Shown one piece after another: positions 39,729 through 47,418 of a DNA stretch of 64,000 bases. Source of the DNA: Ignisphaera sp. (GTDB lineage: Archaea; Thermoproteota; Thermoprotei_A; Sulfolobales; Ignisphaeraceae); the NCBI GenBank assembly GCA_028275825.1, contig JAPWTX010000003.1, positions 17,463 to 81,462 on the forward strand. The letters run 5' to 3'. Both the position numbers and the translations under genes were made by a program. Positions within the stretch are counted from its first letter, which is position 1, and each line of letters starts with the position of its first letter. The notes under the pieces were generated by a model. It had not been told where the DNA came from. It did not search any database and saw only the letters and a list, made by a program, of their open reading frames with translations.

Positions 39729-40496
39729 TCAGCCCAAGTCTATATATGAGTACGTTAGTGATGCTGGTACCTGCCTCTCAACAGTTAATGCTGAGCCAAT
39801 AGGAGGCTTAATCTCAACCTTAAACACATCATAAGGCTTCAAACCACCATCAACCTGCTTTAGTATTGTACCCAACTTAGTGAAGTTGATAACCACCAAC
39901 ACCTTCTCGCCTGCTTGCAGAACGGTATCACCATTATTTGGCTGTCTCCAAATAACAGCAACACCACTCCACGTCGCTTCAGCAGCGTCACAAAGCTCAT
40001 CTATTGTGTAATTAGCAGCATATATTTGGGTGTAACCCTTCAATAACGGTGGATTTGCATTTATCATGTCACTCAGATACTTCGTAAGATTGGTTATTGC
40101 CTGACCCCACTCATTCATAGATGCATTGTGTATTGGATTTGTATATGTTGATGTTAATCCACCTTTGTTTACTACCCAAACGGCGATGTCGGCTTTGCCT
40201 GGTGTTAGGTCAACGTCTTTTTGTCCTGCTGATAATCTGATTGGTATAACAGCACATGTTAGTCTCTGATTCTGGGTGTCTACTTTTGCTAGTACTGTGC
40301 CATCTATCTCTAGTGCGCTGCTTGCTTGGGCTAGTCCCTGGCTCATAACTTCTTTGCTTCTCTGAGTCGTGTAGAAGCCCATGTTTAGCACTACGAATGC
40401 TAGTGCAGCTGCCACTACCACAAATGCTATCAGTACTATAGCTGCTTCAATACCAACAATACCTTTTAACAGCTTTGTTTTTCTCACATTTTTCAC
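39729..40496 (-). CDS. arlB: archaellin
   Basis: class III signal peptide KLLKGIVGIEAAIVLIAFVVVAAALAFVVLNMGFYTTQRSKEV. Confidence 0.95.
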   Translation of the reverse strand: MKNVRKTKLLKGIVGIEAAIVLIAFVVVAAALAFVVLNMGFYTTQRSKEVMSQGLAQASSALEIDGTVLAKVDTQNQRLTCAVIPIRLSAGQKDVDLTPGKADIAVWVVNKGGLTSTYTNPIHNASMNEWGQAITNLTKYLSDMINANPPLLKGYTQIYAANYTIDELCDAAEATWSGVAVIWRQPNNGDTVLQAGEKVLVVINFTKLGTILKQVDGGLKPYDVFKVEIKPPIGSALTVERQVPASLTYSYIDLG

Positions 40497-40744: not shown

Positions 40745-40987
40745 ATGAGTGCTGCAGTATCTTTTCCTAGGCTTGATGAGGCTGTTTCGTTGAGTGGAGT
40801 GGTTGATTTGGAGCACTGTAGTGGTGAAATTATTGCGGGTGTTGAGCTATTTGCACCTCTAATGGTTTTAGGATTTGTTGTGAGGAGTGTTTTAGTGTCT
40901 CTGAGGGGCTATAAGCTTGTAGATGTTGTTATGGAGGTTCCTGATTTTCTGAATTTGATGATAGTGTTTGGCAAAGGTGAGCTGTGA
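40745..40987 (+). CDS. small protein upstream of and overlapping the ArnR-like gene (ORF opens at 40475; likely start ATG 40745)
   Basis: C-terminal part MSAAVSFPRLDEAVSLSGVVDLEHC... in frame to 40987; 4-nt overlap with the next CDS. Confidence 0.45.
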   Translation: MSAAVSFPRLDEAVSLSGVVDLEHCSGEIIAGVELFAPLMVLGFVVRSVLVSLRGYKLVDVVMEVPDFLNLMIVFGKGEL

Positions 40988-41898
40988 TGAGCGGCGATTC
41001 CAGGGCTTTTGATGTGCAGAGTGAGTGTTTTTCTAGATTGCAGGTGTTGAGGGAGCTGGATTCAGCAATAGATTTTGCTAGGGGGTTTCTGCAGCTTAGG
41101 ATTGTTTTGATGCTGGGCTCCAGAGGCTCTATGACTGCTAGGGATATTTCTATAGCTCTTGGGGAAAGGTACAAAGCTGTGTTGGATGCTGTGAGGAAGC
41201 TTGTTGCAAAGAATCTGATCGTTAAAGAGCCTGATGGTGGTGTGGATCTATATAAACTCTCTGATAATGGTGCTGAGTTCTATAAAAAACTCGCAGCTTT
41301 TCTTGGAGTCAAAGAATTTTATAGGATGCCTAGGGGTGAGAGAAAAGTGCTCATATTAGACATAGCAACAAATATCACTAGATATACACATTTGGCGGAT
41401 GCCATAGTAGCGCTGGCTACAAGCAGGAGCAATACGCTTTCTTTGAATGACATTGCTGATGCTATGAAGCTGAGCCTGGAGCGTGCAAAGACCTACATAG
41501 AGATGTTTTGCAGTAGGAGAAATGGTGTGAGATTGTTTAGAAAGGTTGAGAAGGAATCAAGGTTGCTGAGAATATTAGCATTGCTACTCAAACCACTGGG
41601 TATAAAAATGAAGACAACTGTGGAGATGTATAAGCTCAGCGAAGAGGGGTTTACAGTATTCTATAAGCAGCCCTACTACATGAAATATAAGAGGAGTGTA
41701 GCTGCAAAACTAATGACAAAGCTATTTGGCTCGGCACATCCAAGGCTTGTACTAAAGAGAATGTCAGTACTTGTTCTGCTAACAGCATTAACATGTGGAG
41801 TCATTTCCCTAGCCATACGCAGTAGCATTGCAACAGCATTAACGGGTTCCCTAACTCTAGCAGCATCCCTTCTGTACTTGGGTTACAAAGCAATCTAA
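40984..41898 (+). CDS. ArnR-like HTH transcription regulator with C-terminal transmembrane segments
   Basis: wHTH (MTARDISIALGERYKAVLDAVRKLVAKNLIVKE) and two C-terminal hydrophobic helices (VLVLLTALTCGVISLAI / ATALTGSLTLAASLLYLGY); oriented away from adjacent arlB. Confidence 0.75.
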   Translation: MMSGDSRAFDVQSECFSRLQVLRELDSAIDFARGFLQLRIVLMLGSRGSMTARDISIALGERYKAVLDAVRKLVAKNLIVKEPDGGVDLYKLSDNGAEFYKKLAAFLGVKEFYRMPRGERKVLILDIATNITRYTHLADAIVALATSRSNTLSLNDIADAMKLSLERAKTYIEMFCSRRNGVRLFRKVEKESRLLRILALLLKPLGIKMKTTVEMYKLSEEGFTVFYKQPYYMKYKRSVAAKLMTKLFGSAHPRLVLKRMSVLVLLTALTCGVISLAIRSSIATALTGSLTLAASLLYLGYKAI

Positions 41899-42890
41899 CT
41901 TTTTTCAATATGTGCACATATTGTGGGCAGAAAATCAGCAATGATGCTCTCTATTTTGTCTAAAATGCCATCCAACCTTGCATAGATGTTCACAGTTGTT
42001 GGATAAACTAGAGCTGTATAACTATTTCTTACTAACTTAACCCTAGTGCCCTGATGCTCGCCACCTTCATATGTTGCCAGGGTTCTTAGGTTTACTTTGA
42101 ATGGCAGCTTAATTATTATAGTGGCTACAGCTGGTAGGGGCTTTGAAAACTCAACACCTAGCCTCCTTGACAAAAACTGGAGCACTTCAACAACCCTATC
42201 CACATCATCAGCTCTTGAGGATATATCAACTTTGGTAGAGGTGATCTGCACCCCTAGTCCAAGCACTCTTGCAGTAACGTAATTAAGTTTGCCAAGGGTT
42301 CTAACCCCTGTTCCTAAGGCTTGTGAAGCATATTCAACGTCTATAACCTCCCTTAATGGCCTTGAAATCCACCTAACCAAAGCCTTCTTCCTACAGCTCT
42401 TAAACTCATTCAAAAACGCATTTGCAATTCTGTGGAGCTCACTTTTCAATGTTCCTCTACTTGCCTCTGCTAAAACCTCCACTGCCTGGTCATCGCCATA
42501 CCCAGCCCTCTTTAAGCACCTATACACAGCAAGGCCAGCTAATCCAGCTAAGTTAAAAGCCTTTGACTCGTAAAGAGAAGGCATTGTATGGACTCTTCTG
42601 CTGAGAACCCTTCTAAAAATTGTTGCTGCTTCGCTACTCCAAAGAGCTGATAGAGCACTGTTCACCTCATTATAAGAAGCATTGCAAAGTCTTTTCCTTA
42701 GATATGCTTTCAAAACTTCAACAAGGCCTGGCACAATGCTGTTTATAATCTCTTCAACCTTTTCCTCATCCGTACAGAACTCACGGCTCCAAAAAACATC
42801 TCCAGAGGCTTCCAAAGGGCTGTCATCTATAACCTCACCACTATCCTCATCAACTATGAAACCTTCTCGACTCCTAATCTTTCTACCCAT
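41895..42890 (-). CDS. TFIIB-like protein lacking the zinc ribbon, possible TBP-like C-terminal domain
   Basis: N-terminal GFIVDEDSGEVIDDSPLEASG resembles the TFB B-reader; cyclin-like helix segment LAGLAVYRCLKRAGYGDDQAVEVLAEASRGTLKSELHRIANAFL; C-terminal beta-rich stretch resembles a TBP repeat. Confidence 0.6.
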   Translation of the reverse strand: MGRKIRSREGFIVDEDSGEVIDDSPLEASGDVFWSREFCTDEEKVEEIINSIVPGLVEVLKAYLRKRLCNASYNEVNSALSALWSSEAATIFRRVLSRRVHTMPSLYESKAFNLAGLAGLAVYRCLKRAGYGDDQAVEVLAEASRGTLKSELHRIANAFLNEFKSCRKKALVRWISRPLREVIDVEYASQALGTGVRTLGKLNYVTARVLGLGVQITSTKVDISSRADDVDRVVEVLQFLSRRLGVEFSKPLPAVATIIIKLPFKVNLRTLATYEGGEHQGTRVKLVRNSYTALVYPTTVNIYARLDGILDKIESIIADFLPTICAHIEKS

Positions 42891-43029: not shown

Positions 43030-43329
43030 GTGAGCGCTATGGAGAAGAGCGAATTTGTTTTTGAGGAGGATGGTCATGTCTTTGTCATCAGACCTGCAAA
43101 TGGTGTTTTTAGTAGCGATGATCTCTCAATCGCTTTAAAAGCTCTTAAAAAGTTTCTCAAAGGAGAGTTCGAGGATATGCGTAGTGAACGCGTAAAGAGC
43201 AATCAAAAGGGTAATGGGCACTCACATAATGGTGGTAATACCAATAGCCACTCCTCATGGCTTTTAACATGGCTTGCTGAAGCAAATGGTTATAGAGATG
43301 GCTACCCACATCTTTTTACACAGCATTAA
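43030..43329 (+). CDS. hypothetical protein with His/Asn/Gly-rich linker
   Basis: 99-aa ORF, KGNGHSHNGGNTNSHSS linker. Confidence 0.6.
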   Translation: MSAMEKSEFVFEEDGHVFVIRPANGVFSSDDLSIALKALKKFLKGEFEDMRSERVKSNQKGNGHSHNGGNTNSHSSWLLTWLAEANGYRDGYPHLFTQH

Positions 43330-43340
43330 ACGCGCTTTCT

Positions 43341-45323
43341 CTAAATCTTAACTAGTTTTAATAGGATTACTAACACAAGTATTATGAAGATAAGTAGTAT
43401 TAGTATTCGCAGGTCTAGCTGAACACCTCTGGCTGTTACACTTGAGATTACTGTAACTGTGTATGTTGATTGCTGTGTTGTAGTAACAGTGATGGTTTTC
43501 ATAATTGTAACTGCACCGCTTATACTTTGAGGAGTTGCTATGCTTTGTGATGTGAAATAGCTTTGCAATGGTTTTGACTCTACCCCCAATGCGACATATG
43601 TTGAGAGAAGCATTGAGAGCCTTGCTACATTATATAACCTAGTACTTGTTGTCCCTAATCCACTTATTAATTCTAGTAGAAGAGGCACGTCAATGGGTAG
43701 AGAGTTTTTAAGCCTGGTCAGCGATATTTCGATAGTTTTGTTTAAAGCGGCTAGAGATGTTGACTCGTTTAGCATGAACATGTATAGGAGTGTTAAGTAC
43801 ATGTAGCTTATGGAGCTTATGCCTAGCGATAACTTGTCTATAGAAGTGTTGGTTGAAAGCATTAGACTGTACCTGGCTTGGGCTTCTGAAAAGAGGTCCT
43901 GGGGTATTGGTATTTGGGAGGAGAAAGCAATAATGTAGGTATATATGTTTTGAGCTAGTGCAGAAATGGATGATGAAAGTTCTTCAAGGTCGCTAGGTCT
44001 GATAACCATGACTGAAGGTGTTATACTCAAGTTGAATAAGTTTAGCCAGAATCTGGCAGTAGAAATTCTTGCTGAGGCTATTGCCAAGTACTGTGTTGAT
44101 GAATCTAAGTATCTTGTTGAAATGCTTCTATTCATGTATATCAAGGCCTCGTAAAGCCTGTCAACAGTGTTTATAAGTATGGAGAGTTTTGAGGTGTCTA
44201 GGGGTTGAGAAGCTAGGCTCCAGACCTTCTTTAATAGGCTATAAACATCACTTTTTATTGTATTAGCAGTGGTACTAATGTAATTGCTATTTGTTGCTGC
44301 ATTGAGTAAGTGTAGCCTCCAATATGCATATATCAGTGCTTGGAAATACATGGATGCTGCTGAATAGAGCTGGTTTTGTGTCTCAAGTTTGCTTCCCAAA
44401 GCCATATAGTTGTTTATATTGTTATCTATATTGCTTAGAATTTGCCTCAGGTACTGGGCGTAGCTAGTGCTTAAAGCACGTTGCTCTACAGATTTGCTTA
44501 GATTTACAACATTGTTTATCTCATTTCTCATATCATCTATACCACTCCTCAGCATTGGTGCTATAGAGTTGTAGATGCTAGTTATAGCCTCTTCATAGCC
44601 TCCAGTACTGTAGGAGAAAAGCCCGTTAGTGAATACATTTAGTGCTTCATATATGTTAGCCACAGGCTTTACAACAACTCCGTGAGAAGCACCATAAGAT
44701 ACTAGATCCACCGTTTGTGAAACTGTCCTGTAAACAGTTAGAGGCCCCACTCTTTGTGCAACAGTTGTGAATATGGTGTCTGTAGTCTGTCCATATGGTA
44801 CTAGAAACACTTTTGCGCCACGAGATATTACTGCTTGTAACTTGTAGTACACACCCCCAACAGGACCTATGCTCCCATCAGGCATTATCATGCCCGTCAT
44901 CATAATGCTTTCATTTAGTGAAAGACGTAGAAGTGCAGAAGCGAAGGCCACAGCTGTTACACCACTTGCACTAGGTCCTCCAACAATCGGCGAATCAGAT
45001 CTGATTGAAGCATAGAAGTCGCAACCCCCGAAACTAATATTTGCAATAGTGCTAGCCACAATAGCGGCAACTCGTGTCGAAGCCTGTAAATCTATCTCTG
45101 CTAGTGGGAAGGTCTCCACATAAACATGTCCATTACCAGGACAAGCAACCCTCACATAGAGATCAGCAGTAACACCAGTATACGAGCCGTTAGGGAGCTG
45201 TGTTACTGCAACAATTGTAACATGCCTGCTTTCATCAAGCGTATAATACTGTGAAGCAGCTATAGAAGATTCAAATACCGCTGTTAGAATCAGTAGTAAG
45301 AGTATCATTGCAATTCTAGGCAT
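43341..45323 (-). CDS. membrane-anchored archaeal Lon-like (S16) serine protease family protein
   Basis: GGPSASGVTAVAFASALLRLSLNESIMMTGMIMPDGSIGPVGGVYYKLQAVISRGAKVFLVP (Ser/Lys dyad region); signal at N-terminus and TM at C-terminus. Confidence 0.88.
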   Translation of the reverse strand: MPRIAMILLLLILTAVFESSIAASQYYTLDESRHVTIVAVTQLPNGSYTGVTADLYVRVACPGNGHVYVETFPLAEIDLQASTRVAAIVASTIANISFGGCDFYASIRSDSPIVGGPSASGVTAVAFASALLRLSLNESIMMTGMIMPDGSIGPVGGVYYKLQAVISRGAKVFLVPYGQTTDTIFTTVAQRVGPLTVYRTVSQTVDLVSYGASHGVVVKPVANIYEALNVFTNGLFSYSTGGYEEAITSIYNSIAPMLRSGIDDMRNEINNVVNLSKSVEQRALSTSYAQYLRQILSNIDNNINNYMALGSKLETQNQLYSAASMYFQALIYAYWRLHLLNAATNSNYISTTANTIKSDVYSLLKKVWSLASQPLDTSKLSILINTVDRLYEALIYMNRSISTRYLDSSTQYLAIASARISTARFWLNLFNLSITPSVMVIRPSDLEELSSSISALAQNIYTYIIAFSSQIPIPQDLFSEAQARYSLMLSTNTSIDKLSLGISSISYMYLTLLYMFMLNESTSLAALNKTIEISLTRLKNSLPIDVPLLLELISGLGTTSTRLYNVARLSMLLSTYVALGVESKPLQSYFTSQSIATPQSISGAVTIMKTITVTTTQQSTYTVTVISSVTARGVQLDLRILILLIFIILVLVILLKLVKI

Positions 45324-45632
45324 TTATCACAACCTACCGGAAATCACAGTCTTATATAAATAAAAGTTTTGCGCACAAAAAGTTTTTGTAAGAGGATCTG
45401 TTTCATCTTCAGAGTCACTGCAATCACGGCAATGCAACTCCTTTATACTGAGCCACGAGAATCTCTATCGGCTTTCACCAAGAATGATGCTTAGCTAGTT
45501 CTCGACTCATTTACACTGTGTTCAATATTGAGAAGACTTGGCAAGGTCTTAGAAGCCCCTCTATATTTATTACTATATAAATGAAAGGCTTTTAGCTGTA
45601 ATGCTATAAGGAAAGGAGGGATTTGAGCAAAG

Positions 45633-46091
45633 TTAGATAACATCACTTAGTAGCTTAATTGTTCTATCAATATTGTCGTCAACACCTCTCATAATTGCTC
45701 TTAGGTAGTGTTGGGGCATTGATTGTGCAAATTCTTTCAGCAGCCCTGTACTATGCATGAGGGATCTGAGTGCTTGTGAGAGGTCTGGTGAAAGCTTCTG
45801 CAGCTCTTCCTCAAGTTCTGATTTTTTCAGTTTTGGATGTGTGATGCTGATAGGCTCTCCTAGTGCTCTCCTTAGCACCTGTATGGTTTTGTCAAGCTTG
45901 AGCATAGTCATGGAGAAGCCGTCGTAGAGCTCTCTAAGTCTTCGCTCTGCAATGATATAGAAGGAGTCTACTAGCTCCCCCCTAATCTCAAGTAAAACTT
46001 TGTATGCTGCAGCCATCTCCTCTTTACTCATGGTACTACTCTTTCTCTTTATTCTTGCTAAAGCATCTTTTAAGAATCCCATAAGCTTCAC
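45633..46091 (-). CDS. hypothetical helical protein
   Basis: 152-aa charged helical ORF. Confidence 0.6.
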   Translation of the reverse strand: MKLMGFLKDALARIKRKSSTMSKEEMAAAYKVLLEIRGELVDSFYIIAERRLRELYDGFSMTMLKLDKTIQVLRRALGEPISITHPKLKKSELEEELQKLSPDLSQALRSLMHSTGLLKEFAQSMPQHYLRAIMRGVDDNIDRTIKLLSDVI

Positions 46092-46148
46092 ATGTCTGTA
46101 TGCAACAGAAAAGGTTTTAAATAGCTTCTGTAAACAATTGTATACAGA

Positions 46149-46427
46149 GTGTGTCTAGCAATGGCATTAAAGAGTAGAGATAGAGACAAAGTGCTCAGAT
46201 CTTTAGCTAGATGGCTTGCAGGTCTAGAGCCTCTCTTTGGCTCTAATCATTATTTCGAGAGATATTCTACAGCTAAAAAAGTTGTGGAGAGGCTTTCTCC
46301 ATATAGAGGACTCCTGATATGTCCATTCTGTAAGAAAAGGTTTCTTAGGGCTTCAGCTTTTGTTACCCATATAGTAAAATTACATGCATTAGAGCTTGAA
46401 GAACTTATAGATACTGAAAGCATGTGA
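46149..46427 (+). CDS. C2H2 zinc-finger protein
   Basis: LLICPFCKKRFLRASAFVTHIVKLHALELEEL (CxxC...HxxxxH). Confidence 0.8.
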   Translation: MCLAMALKSRDRDKVLRSLARWLAGLEPLFGSNHYFERYSTAKKVVERLSPYRGLLICPFCKKRFLRASAFVTHIVKLHALELEELIDTESM

Positions 46428-46443
46428 AAATGCGGCACTAAAA

Positions 46444-47418
46444 ATGTTTGTAGAGAAGCTCTTTCCCTATTCAAAGATAATGGTTAGGAATAGCTATAGT
46501 GGTTGTAGCGAGAAGTGTGATGCAAAGAAGCTGGTGGAGGAGGGGAGTCTAGTACCATTAGAAGCATCTTCAGTATTGGAAAAGCTGTATATGGGGGATT
46601 TGAAGAGTTTTGCAGACATATATATCGATGCCATGCTCTGCACAGAAATCACAGCTCTATGTAGAGAGAATGGACCTAGGATAAAGTATGGCGTAGCCCA
46701 AGCACAAGACGGGGTTGAGGTATACTCTGAATGTTTTGACCCAGAATTGTTGTTCAACATACTCTTAGGAGACATAGCAAAGGCATTAATGGTATACACT
46801 GGATATAGGGATAACATAAAATTCAAACTGATTAAAATTTCCAAGGAAATTACGACAAGAGAATTTCTCGAAATTGTTGAAAATAGAATTCTGAACAGCG
46901 CTAATCATTCTCACGAATATTTGAAAGAGGAGCCCATAGGCGAATTCCTTAAAAAACTTGTGCAAGAAAAGAGCTTCTCAGAAATAATACTTCAAGTACC
47001 TTGCTTAGACAAGAACTTCATCCATGTTTTTCTAGAGGTAGTGAAAAAGATTAGGGAAAGCGGTAAAATAGTTTATATAGCAACTTCAATACCTACTAAA
47101 GAAAATGCCCGATTCTGCAAAGTCCCATACAAAGATTTTGTTGCCTACTATATTCAACTTATTGAAGAGTCAAAGATGCACAAAATCATTATATGTGATA
47201 GTGAAGCTCCGCATATAGGCATTATAGTGGATAGAAGAATTTACATGATGTCTAGTGATATAATTTACAGAGAAGATTTACATGTAATACCCATAGCAGA
47301 TACAAAGTATGCAAATGATTACGCCACATTAGTGCTAAAGCATTGCCTCTGTTCAAACAACTTAATCAAAGACGATAGCAAAGTAATGCAAAAAGATATA
47401 GTGATGCATATGATATAA
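46444..47418 (+). CDS. hypothetical protein
   Basis: 324-aa ORF following the zinc-finger gene on the same strand. Confidence 0.6.
   Translation: MFVEKLFPYSKIMVRNSYSGCSEKCDAKKLVEEGSLVPLEASSVLEKLYMGDLKSFADIYIDAMLCTEITALCRENGPRIKYGVAQAQDGVEVYSECFDPELLFNILLGDIAKALMVYTGYRDNIKFKLIKISKEITTREFLEIVENRILNSANHSHEYLKEEPIGEFLKKLVQEKSFSEIILQVPCLDKNFIHVFLEVVKKIRESGKIVYIATSIPTKENARFCKVPYKDFVAYYIQLIEESKMHKIIICDSEAPHIGIIVDRRIYMMSSDIIYREDLHVIPIADTKYANDYATLVLKHCLCSNNLIKDDSKVMQKDIVMHMI

Follow-up and report, generated by a model that had tools for sequence, protein, structure and literature searches.

A 64,000-nucleotide stretch of an Ignisphaera sp. genome (GenBank:GCA_028275825.1, contig JAPWTX010000003.1, positions 17,463 to 81,462 of the forward strand), hereafter the window, carries on its minus strand a gene whose product very probably joins a TFB-type arm to a TBP-type saddle and is called here the fusion protein. 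The open reading frame (ORF) is uninterrupted over 331 codons and starts with ATG, just 5′ of which GGAGAT is found on the same strand. Homologs in other genomes had 70 to 29% identity to the window protein in a 10-member alignment, indicating that this is a conserved gene, more than a chance ORF. The gene and its parts are as follows.

41895..42890, minus strand: TFB/TBP-like fusion gene, 331 residues (intact ORF; 10-member family alignment)
42783..42890, minus strand: residues 1-36, TFB-type zinc-ribbon remnant without cysteines, EGFIVDEDSGEVIDD (hhalign, BLASTP, AlphaFold model)
42384..42767, minus strand: residues 42-169, helical middle domain (AlphaFold secondary structure, partly of low confidence)
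42147..42383, minus strand: residues 170-248, predicted first TBP lobe (AlphaFold, with a predicted local distance difference test score, pLDDT, of 92-96 by blocks; Foldseek; profile)
41916..42143, minus strand: residues 250-325, predicted second TBP lobe (AlphaFold, Foldseek, profile)

Domains of the fusion protein

An earlier note, made from the sequence of this DNA, had proposed a TFB-like/TBP-like fusion, and this was borne out at the N-terminus by profile comparison and at the C-terminus by the predicted structure together with weak, in-register profile matches. Four members keep the TFB B-reader as HPEYRAYS.EE, namely those of G013, G104, G002 (taken as I. aggregans AQ1.S1) and G018 (taken as Pyrolobus fumarii 1A); their N-terminal pattern reads EGF.VD..TGEV.DD.PID.EHPEYRAYS.EE..RK.HY.P. 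Comparison of these rows with TFBs of the order by hhalign gave P 1.1e-8, with none of 300 column shuffles as good (real score 51.9, best shuffle 19.5), and the P. fumarii N-terminus matched a small TFB set by BLASTP with E 3e-10. By sequence comparison, the N-terminus of the family is thus derived from TFB. When all rows were used, several of which lack the reader, hhalign gave P 1.4e-4 (0/300 shuffles). The earlier note had described the N-terminus of the window protein as a B-reader without zinc cysteines; it is Cys-free and TFB-derived, but this copy holds a ribbon remnant only. Residues 1-36 were modeled as three short strands, the last strands of the TFB zinc ribbon being kept, and the Cys ligands of TFB/TFIIB are missing, the first 38 residues being free of Cys. 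In the alignment, the same loss of the B-reader with retention of the ribbon strands was seen in the nearest relatives of the window copy (G052, G034/G068 and G024). Many TFBs of the order themselves have only one Cys per zinc pair.

Several other proteins resemble this N-terminus. The closest matches were two TFB-like proteins (L028 of G450 and L109 of G063) without any zinc-ribbon Cys that keep the B-reader and cyclin-type repeats. The same TFB-like start motif (EGFLVDSCTGEVVDFENY) was found in a separate family of about 228-280 residues from Sulfolobaceae (loci L027, L110, L112, L115, L117 and L120), in which a helical part without Pfam match follows the motif. The viral family phrog_20431, of 293 positions and unknown function, matched members in their first 40, TFB-like residues and nowhere else (E 2.9e-6); some archaeal viruses may thus carry TFB-like factors.

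For the C-terminus, AlphaFold2 was run on a four-row alignment of the window protein and related loci. The pLDDT was about 90 across residues 165-325, and the predicted elements followed the order S1-H1-S2-S3-S4-S5-H2 twice in tandem. The first lobe had strands at residues 171-176, 196-199, 202-209, 212-216 and 221-226 and helices at 185-192 and 230-244; the second had strands at 252-261, 284-287, 291-295 and 299-305 and helices at 268-275 and 312-325. In a Foldseek search of PDB, ranks 1-43 were all TBP chains or TBP-containing complexes, followed by unrelated aspartokinase domains; the best TBP match had E 2.8e-7 and probability 1.00, target TM-scores reached 0.69, and the alignments covered mostly about 180 columns at 9-16% identity. 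Several TBP-annotated proteins were also among the matches in a viral structure library. Structure prediction and fold search, which the earlier note had named as a check, thus returned a TBP saddle, and a complete two-lobed TBP fold is strongly supported by this prediction. The segment that had been read there as a single TBP repeat does correspond to a TBP lobe, but two such lobes, at about 170-248 and 250-325, are predicted and not one.

Profile comparison of both lobes with TBP gave weak matches in the same register as the model, pairing VATIVI..NL..LA with IVATVTL..LDLE.I and YTALVY with VTALIF. The second lobe matched the TBP profile with P 0.0036 (2/300 shuffles) and, in a second test, P 0.0085 (1/200), and the first lobe matched pooled TBP lobes with P 0.010 (4/200). 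A global profile alignment of the two lobes together to TBP was not significant (9/200). No internal sequence repeat was detectable between the first and second lobes within the family (248/300 shuffles), so that the lobe duplication is visible only structurally and against TBP.

The earlier note had also seen a cyclin-fold-like segment in the centre of the protein, which did not hold up: the region is helical, with no recognisable cyclin repeat by Pfam, profile comparison or fold search. Neither the cyclin repeat PF00382 nor the TBP family PF00352 was matched by any of the 10 members, and no other Pfam or NCBIfam model fitted the family. Against TFB, the middle region scored inside the shuffle range (113/300). 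Its fold search returned no cyclin match, which says little at a pLDDT of 58 for the N-terminal model, and TFIIB chains were among the fold matches of that model only at E above 2. A cyclin fold for residues 42-169 was therefore set aside; the middle domain is helical and not demonstrably cyclin-like.

Conservation and distribution

Mean pairwise identity within the family was 45% for the N-terminal motif, 46-49% for the C-terminal half and 31-33% for the helical middle; the TBP-like saddle and the N-terminal motif are thus the best conserved parts and the middle the least. In each TBP lobe, position L5.1 is occupied by a DNA-contacting Phe (PMC7221094). At the position corresponding to it in the second lobe, all 10 members have Tyr or Phe (Tyr296 in the window protein), and in the first lobe, as placed by the model and the profile alignment, all 10 have Ile or Val. 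The aromatic residue that TBP has in both lobes is therefore kept in the second only. Arg283 and Lys285 of the second lobe and Lys220 of the first are invariant, and the FPG loop of TBP is replaced by xQG. Of the C.L3.2/C.L3.4 Glu pair, which binds TFB in TBP, some but not all members have a Glu at the first position, the loop alignment being uncertain. This residue pattern would fit a mode of DNA binding that differs from that of TBP and is less symmetric.

A profile search detected the family in 12 of 214 genomes of the order. Ten of the 11 sampled Ignisphaera genomes had a copy, one of them broken, and the single genome without the gene is a 75% complete assembly; outside Ignisphaera, the order contributed G104, from another genus of the same family of organisms, and P. 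fumarii. In a 398-genome sample of the phylum, no further convincing full-length member was found, and weak phylum-wide matches of the TBP-like profile were short and judged to be due to chance. Matches of the family profile to designed helical repeats, DnaI and ribosomal S10, the last spanning just about 35 residues, were likewise attributed to helix composition or short chance similarity. With the window protein as a single query, searches of Pfam, NCBIfam and PDB (phmmer) gave nothing usable, and a scan of genome contigs gave no match. A viral origin of the gene was considered and set aside, as no relative of the protein was found in the viral contigs and phage records searched.

Neighboring genes and other factors of the host

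40984..41898, plus strand: ArnR-like membrane-bound regulator gene (NCBIfam ArnR equivalog model, E 2.3e-28)
39729..40496, minus strand: arlB, archaellin gene, heading the archaellum cluster (ORF list)
35129 (arlI), 36813 (arlH) and others to about 40496: archaellum cluster (ORFs)
Contig C54 of the host genome, 10339-10884, and contig C80, 20795-21349: the two ordinary TFBs of the host

The fusion gene and the ArnR-like gene lie tail to tail and share 4 nucleotides, 41895-41898, exactly as the earlier note had it, and its placement of the gene close to arlB was likewise correct. The ArnR-like ORF scored 99 bits with the NCBIfam model, far under the cut-off of 400. On the other side, the window contains at 43030-47418 a 99-residue ORF, a Lon-like protease-domain protein, a 152-residue ORF, a C2H2-zinc-finger-like ORF and a 324-residue ORF; this run, mostly of unknown function, is conserved next to the fusion gene in G024, G034 and G068.

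The fusion gene adjoins arlB and arnR-like genes in the window genome (G000) and in G024, G044 and G061; in the latter three, the orientations vary and the archaellum cluster next to the gene is conserved. In I. aggregans, paired ArlI and ArlH ORFs and a further ORF at the place of ArlJ are located about 5-8 kb away, and the neighbors in G013 are a pilin-like gene and genes for two assembly proteins of the T2SSF type. In both G104 and P. fumarii, the fusion gene runs on one strand together with a pilin-like gene and a HerA-like ATPase, to which P. fumarii adds T2SSF and a pilus-type ATPase. G034/G068 are an exception to this clustering, since arlI is about 15 kb from the fusion gene with other genes between. 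The link to the archaellum drawn in the earlier note can thus be extended to type IV pilus clusters, but the evidence for any link to filament genes is one of gene neighborhood.

In G074, the fusion gene is broken and no close ArlI was found; archaellum and fusion gene have decayed together, and archaellum loss has been caught in the act. On contig C46 of this genome (L020, L104), the first 150 codons stand alone, and a piece spanning about residues 150-210 forms one reading frame with the final 18 residues of ArlB; the two pieces are separated by a VapC-like ORF and others. It was also noticed that ArlI of G044 (C1:230682-233684, minus strand) is split near residue 393 by a large in-frame insertion, within one frame of 1014 codons, which looks like an intein.

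Since the host genome encodes a single ordinary TBP as well as two ordinary TFBs, the fusion protein is an additional factor. Both ordinary TFBs have one Cys left per zinc-ribbon pair.

Possible role in transcription initiation

We consider it somewhat probable (roughly 0.55) that the fusion protein is an accessory factor, either an initiation factor or a regulator, that selects the promoters of archaellum and related pilus genes. A TFB-derived, polymerase-docking N-terminus would be joined via a helical domain to a complete TBP saddle, and the saddle would most likely be restricted to some promoters, namely those driving the archaellum and related type IV pili. Its grip on DNA would be altered, the second lobe alone having kept the intercalating aromatic residue. 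Through its tethered TFB-like arm, the protein would reach RNA polymerase or the host's own TBP-TFB complex, and in this way it may set the timing of filament-gene transcription alongside ArnR, activation being likelier than repression. In a stronger version, the saddle would grip promoter DNA while the TFB-type reader reaches into RNA polymerase, giving a self-sufficient TBP-TFB factor on one polypeptide, a sigma-like alternative for a surface-filament regulon. This version is a tentative one for the family, and it is rated lower still for the window copy because its B-reader is gone.

Several observations weigh against a role of this kind. A full TFB/TBP role is doubtful given the absence of the B-reader from the window copy and of the L5.1 aromatic residue from the first lobe; the prediction of the structure used four sequences, with no known-fold protein run as a control; and the TBP homology is weak in sequence, at single-comparison P values of 0.004-0.01. 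G052 carries the fusion gene with no close ArlI found in its fragmented assembly, and both P. fumarii (PMC3156397) and I. aggregans (PMC3035270) are recorded as non-motile. Because of these two organisms, the association should be seen as one with type IV filaments in general and not with swimming.

The missing B-reader of the window clade, the loss of cyclin repeats and zinc ligands, and the tail-to-tail overlap with the ArnR-like gene would also suit a repressor or decoy that places its saddle on TATA-like promoters, or its ribbon remnant on the polymerase dock, without initiation. This is an unlikely explanation, and would apply to the reader-less clade especially; four members including P. 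fumarii keep the B-reader, which a pure decoy would not need. Less likely again is a general extra initiation factor lying near filament genes incidentally: the separation from arlI in G034/G068 and the lineage-dependent flanking genes agree with it, but most lineages have filament genes of some kind nearby, and the G074 copy decayed along with the archaellum. Very improbable is a TBP-like fold of other origin with a role outside transcription, such as nucleic-acid binding as in RNase HIII, since, despite the low Foldseek identity and the non-aromatic first-lobe L5.1 residue, the top PDB matches are all TBPs and the fold is fused to a TFB-derived segment.

The accessory initiation factor favored here can be compared with several known systems. 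With TBP the family shares the two tandem lobes and their order of elements, the overall fold and the second-lobe L5.1 aromatic residue, whereas the lack of a Pfam match, the 9-16% identity, the first-lobe Ile/Val, the xQG loop and the extra domains set it apart. Like archaeal TFB, it has the last N-terminal ribbon strands and, in four members, the B-reader motif, but the zinc cysteines and recognisable cyclin repeats are absent and a TBP domain is present instead. Sulfolobus TFB3, unlike the fusion family, is not known to have a TBP domain. It is comparable in being a TFB-derived accessory activator working beside canonical TFB (PMC7289017). The poxvirus factors VETF-l and VITF-3 are strongly diverged TBP-type folds in promoter-class-specific initiation, and the TBP homolog VETF-l contacts DNA asymmetrically (PMC12917281); a VETF-containing entry, 7amv_K, was a weak Foldseek match of the fusion protein. 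These factors differ in being viral, and their TFIIB-like partner is a protein of its own (Rap94, VITF-3s). In the archaeal and eukaryotic systems of the cited literature, TBP and TFB occur as two distinct proteins, and a limited, non-exhaustive literature search for natural TBP-TFB fusions found none.

A natural fusion that has dispensed with cyclin repeats and zinc ligands would reveal the extent to which two-factor initiation can be rebuilt, and the family would be a cellular parallel to the divergent poxvirus factors. Members with and without the B-reader offer a natural comparison of the contribution of this element. If the proposed role is true, archaea would have a simple, testable route to pick filament genes via a dedicated initiation factor.
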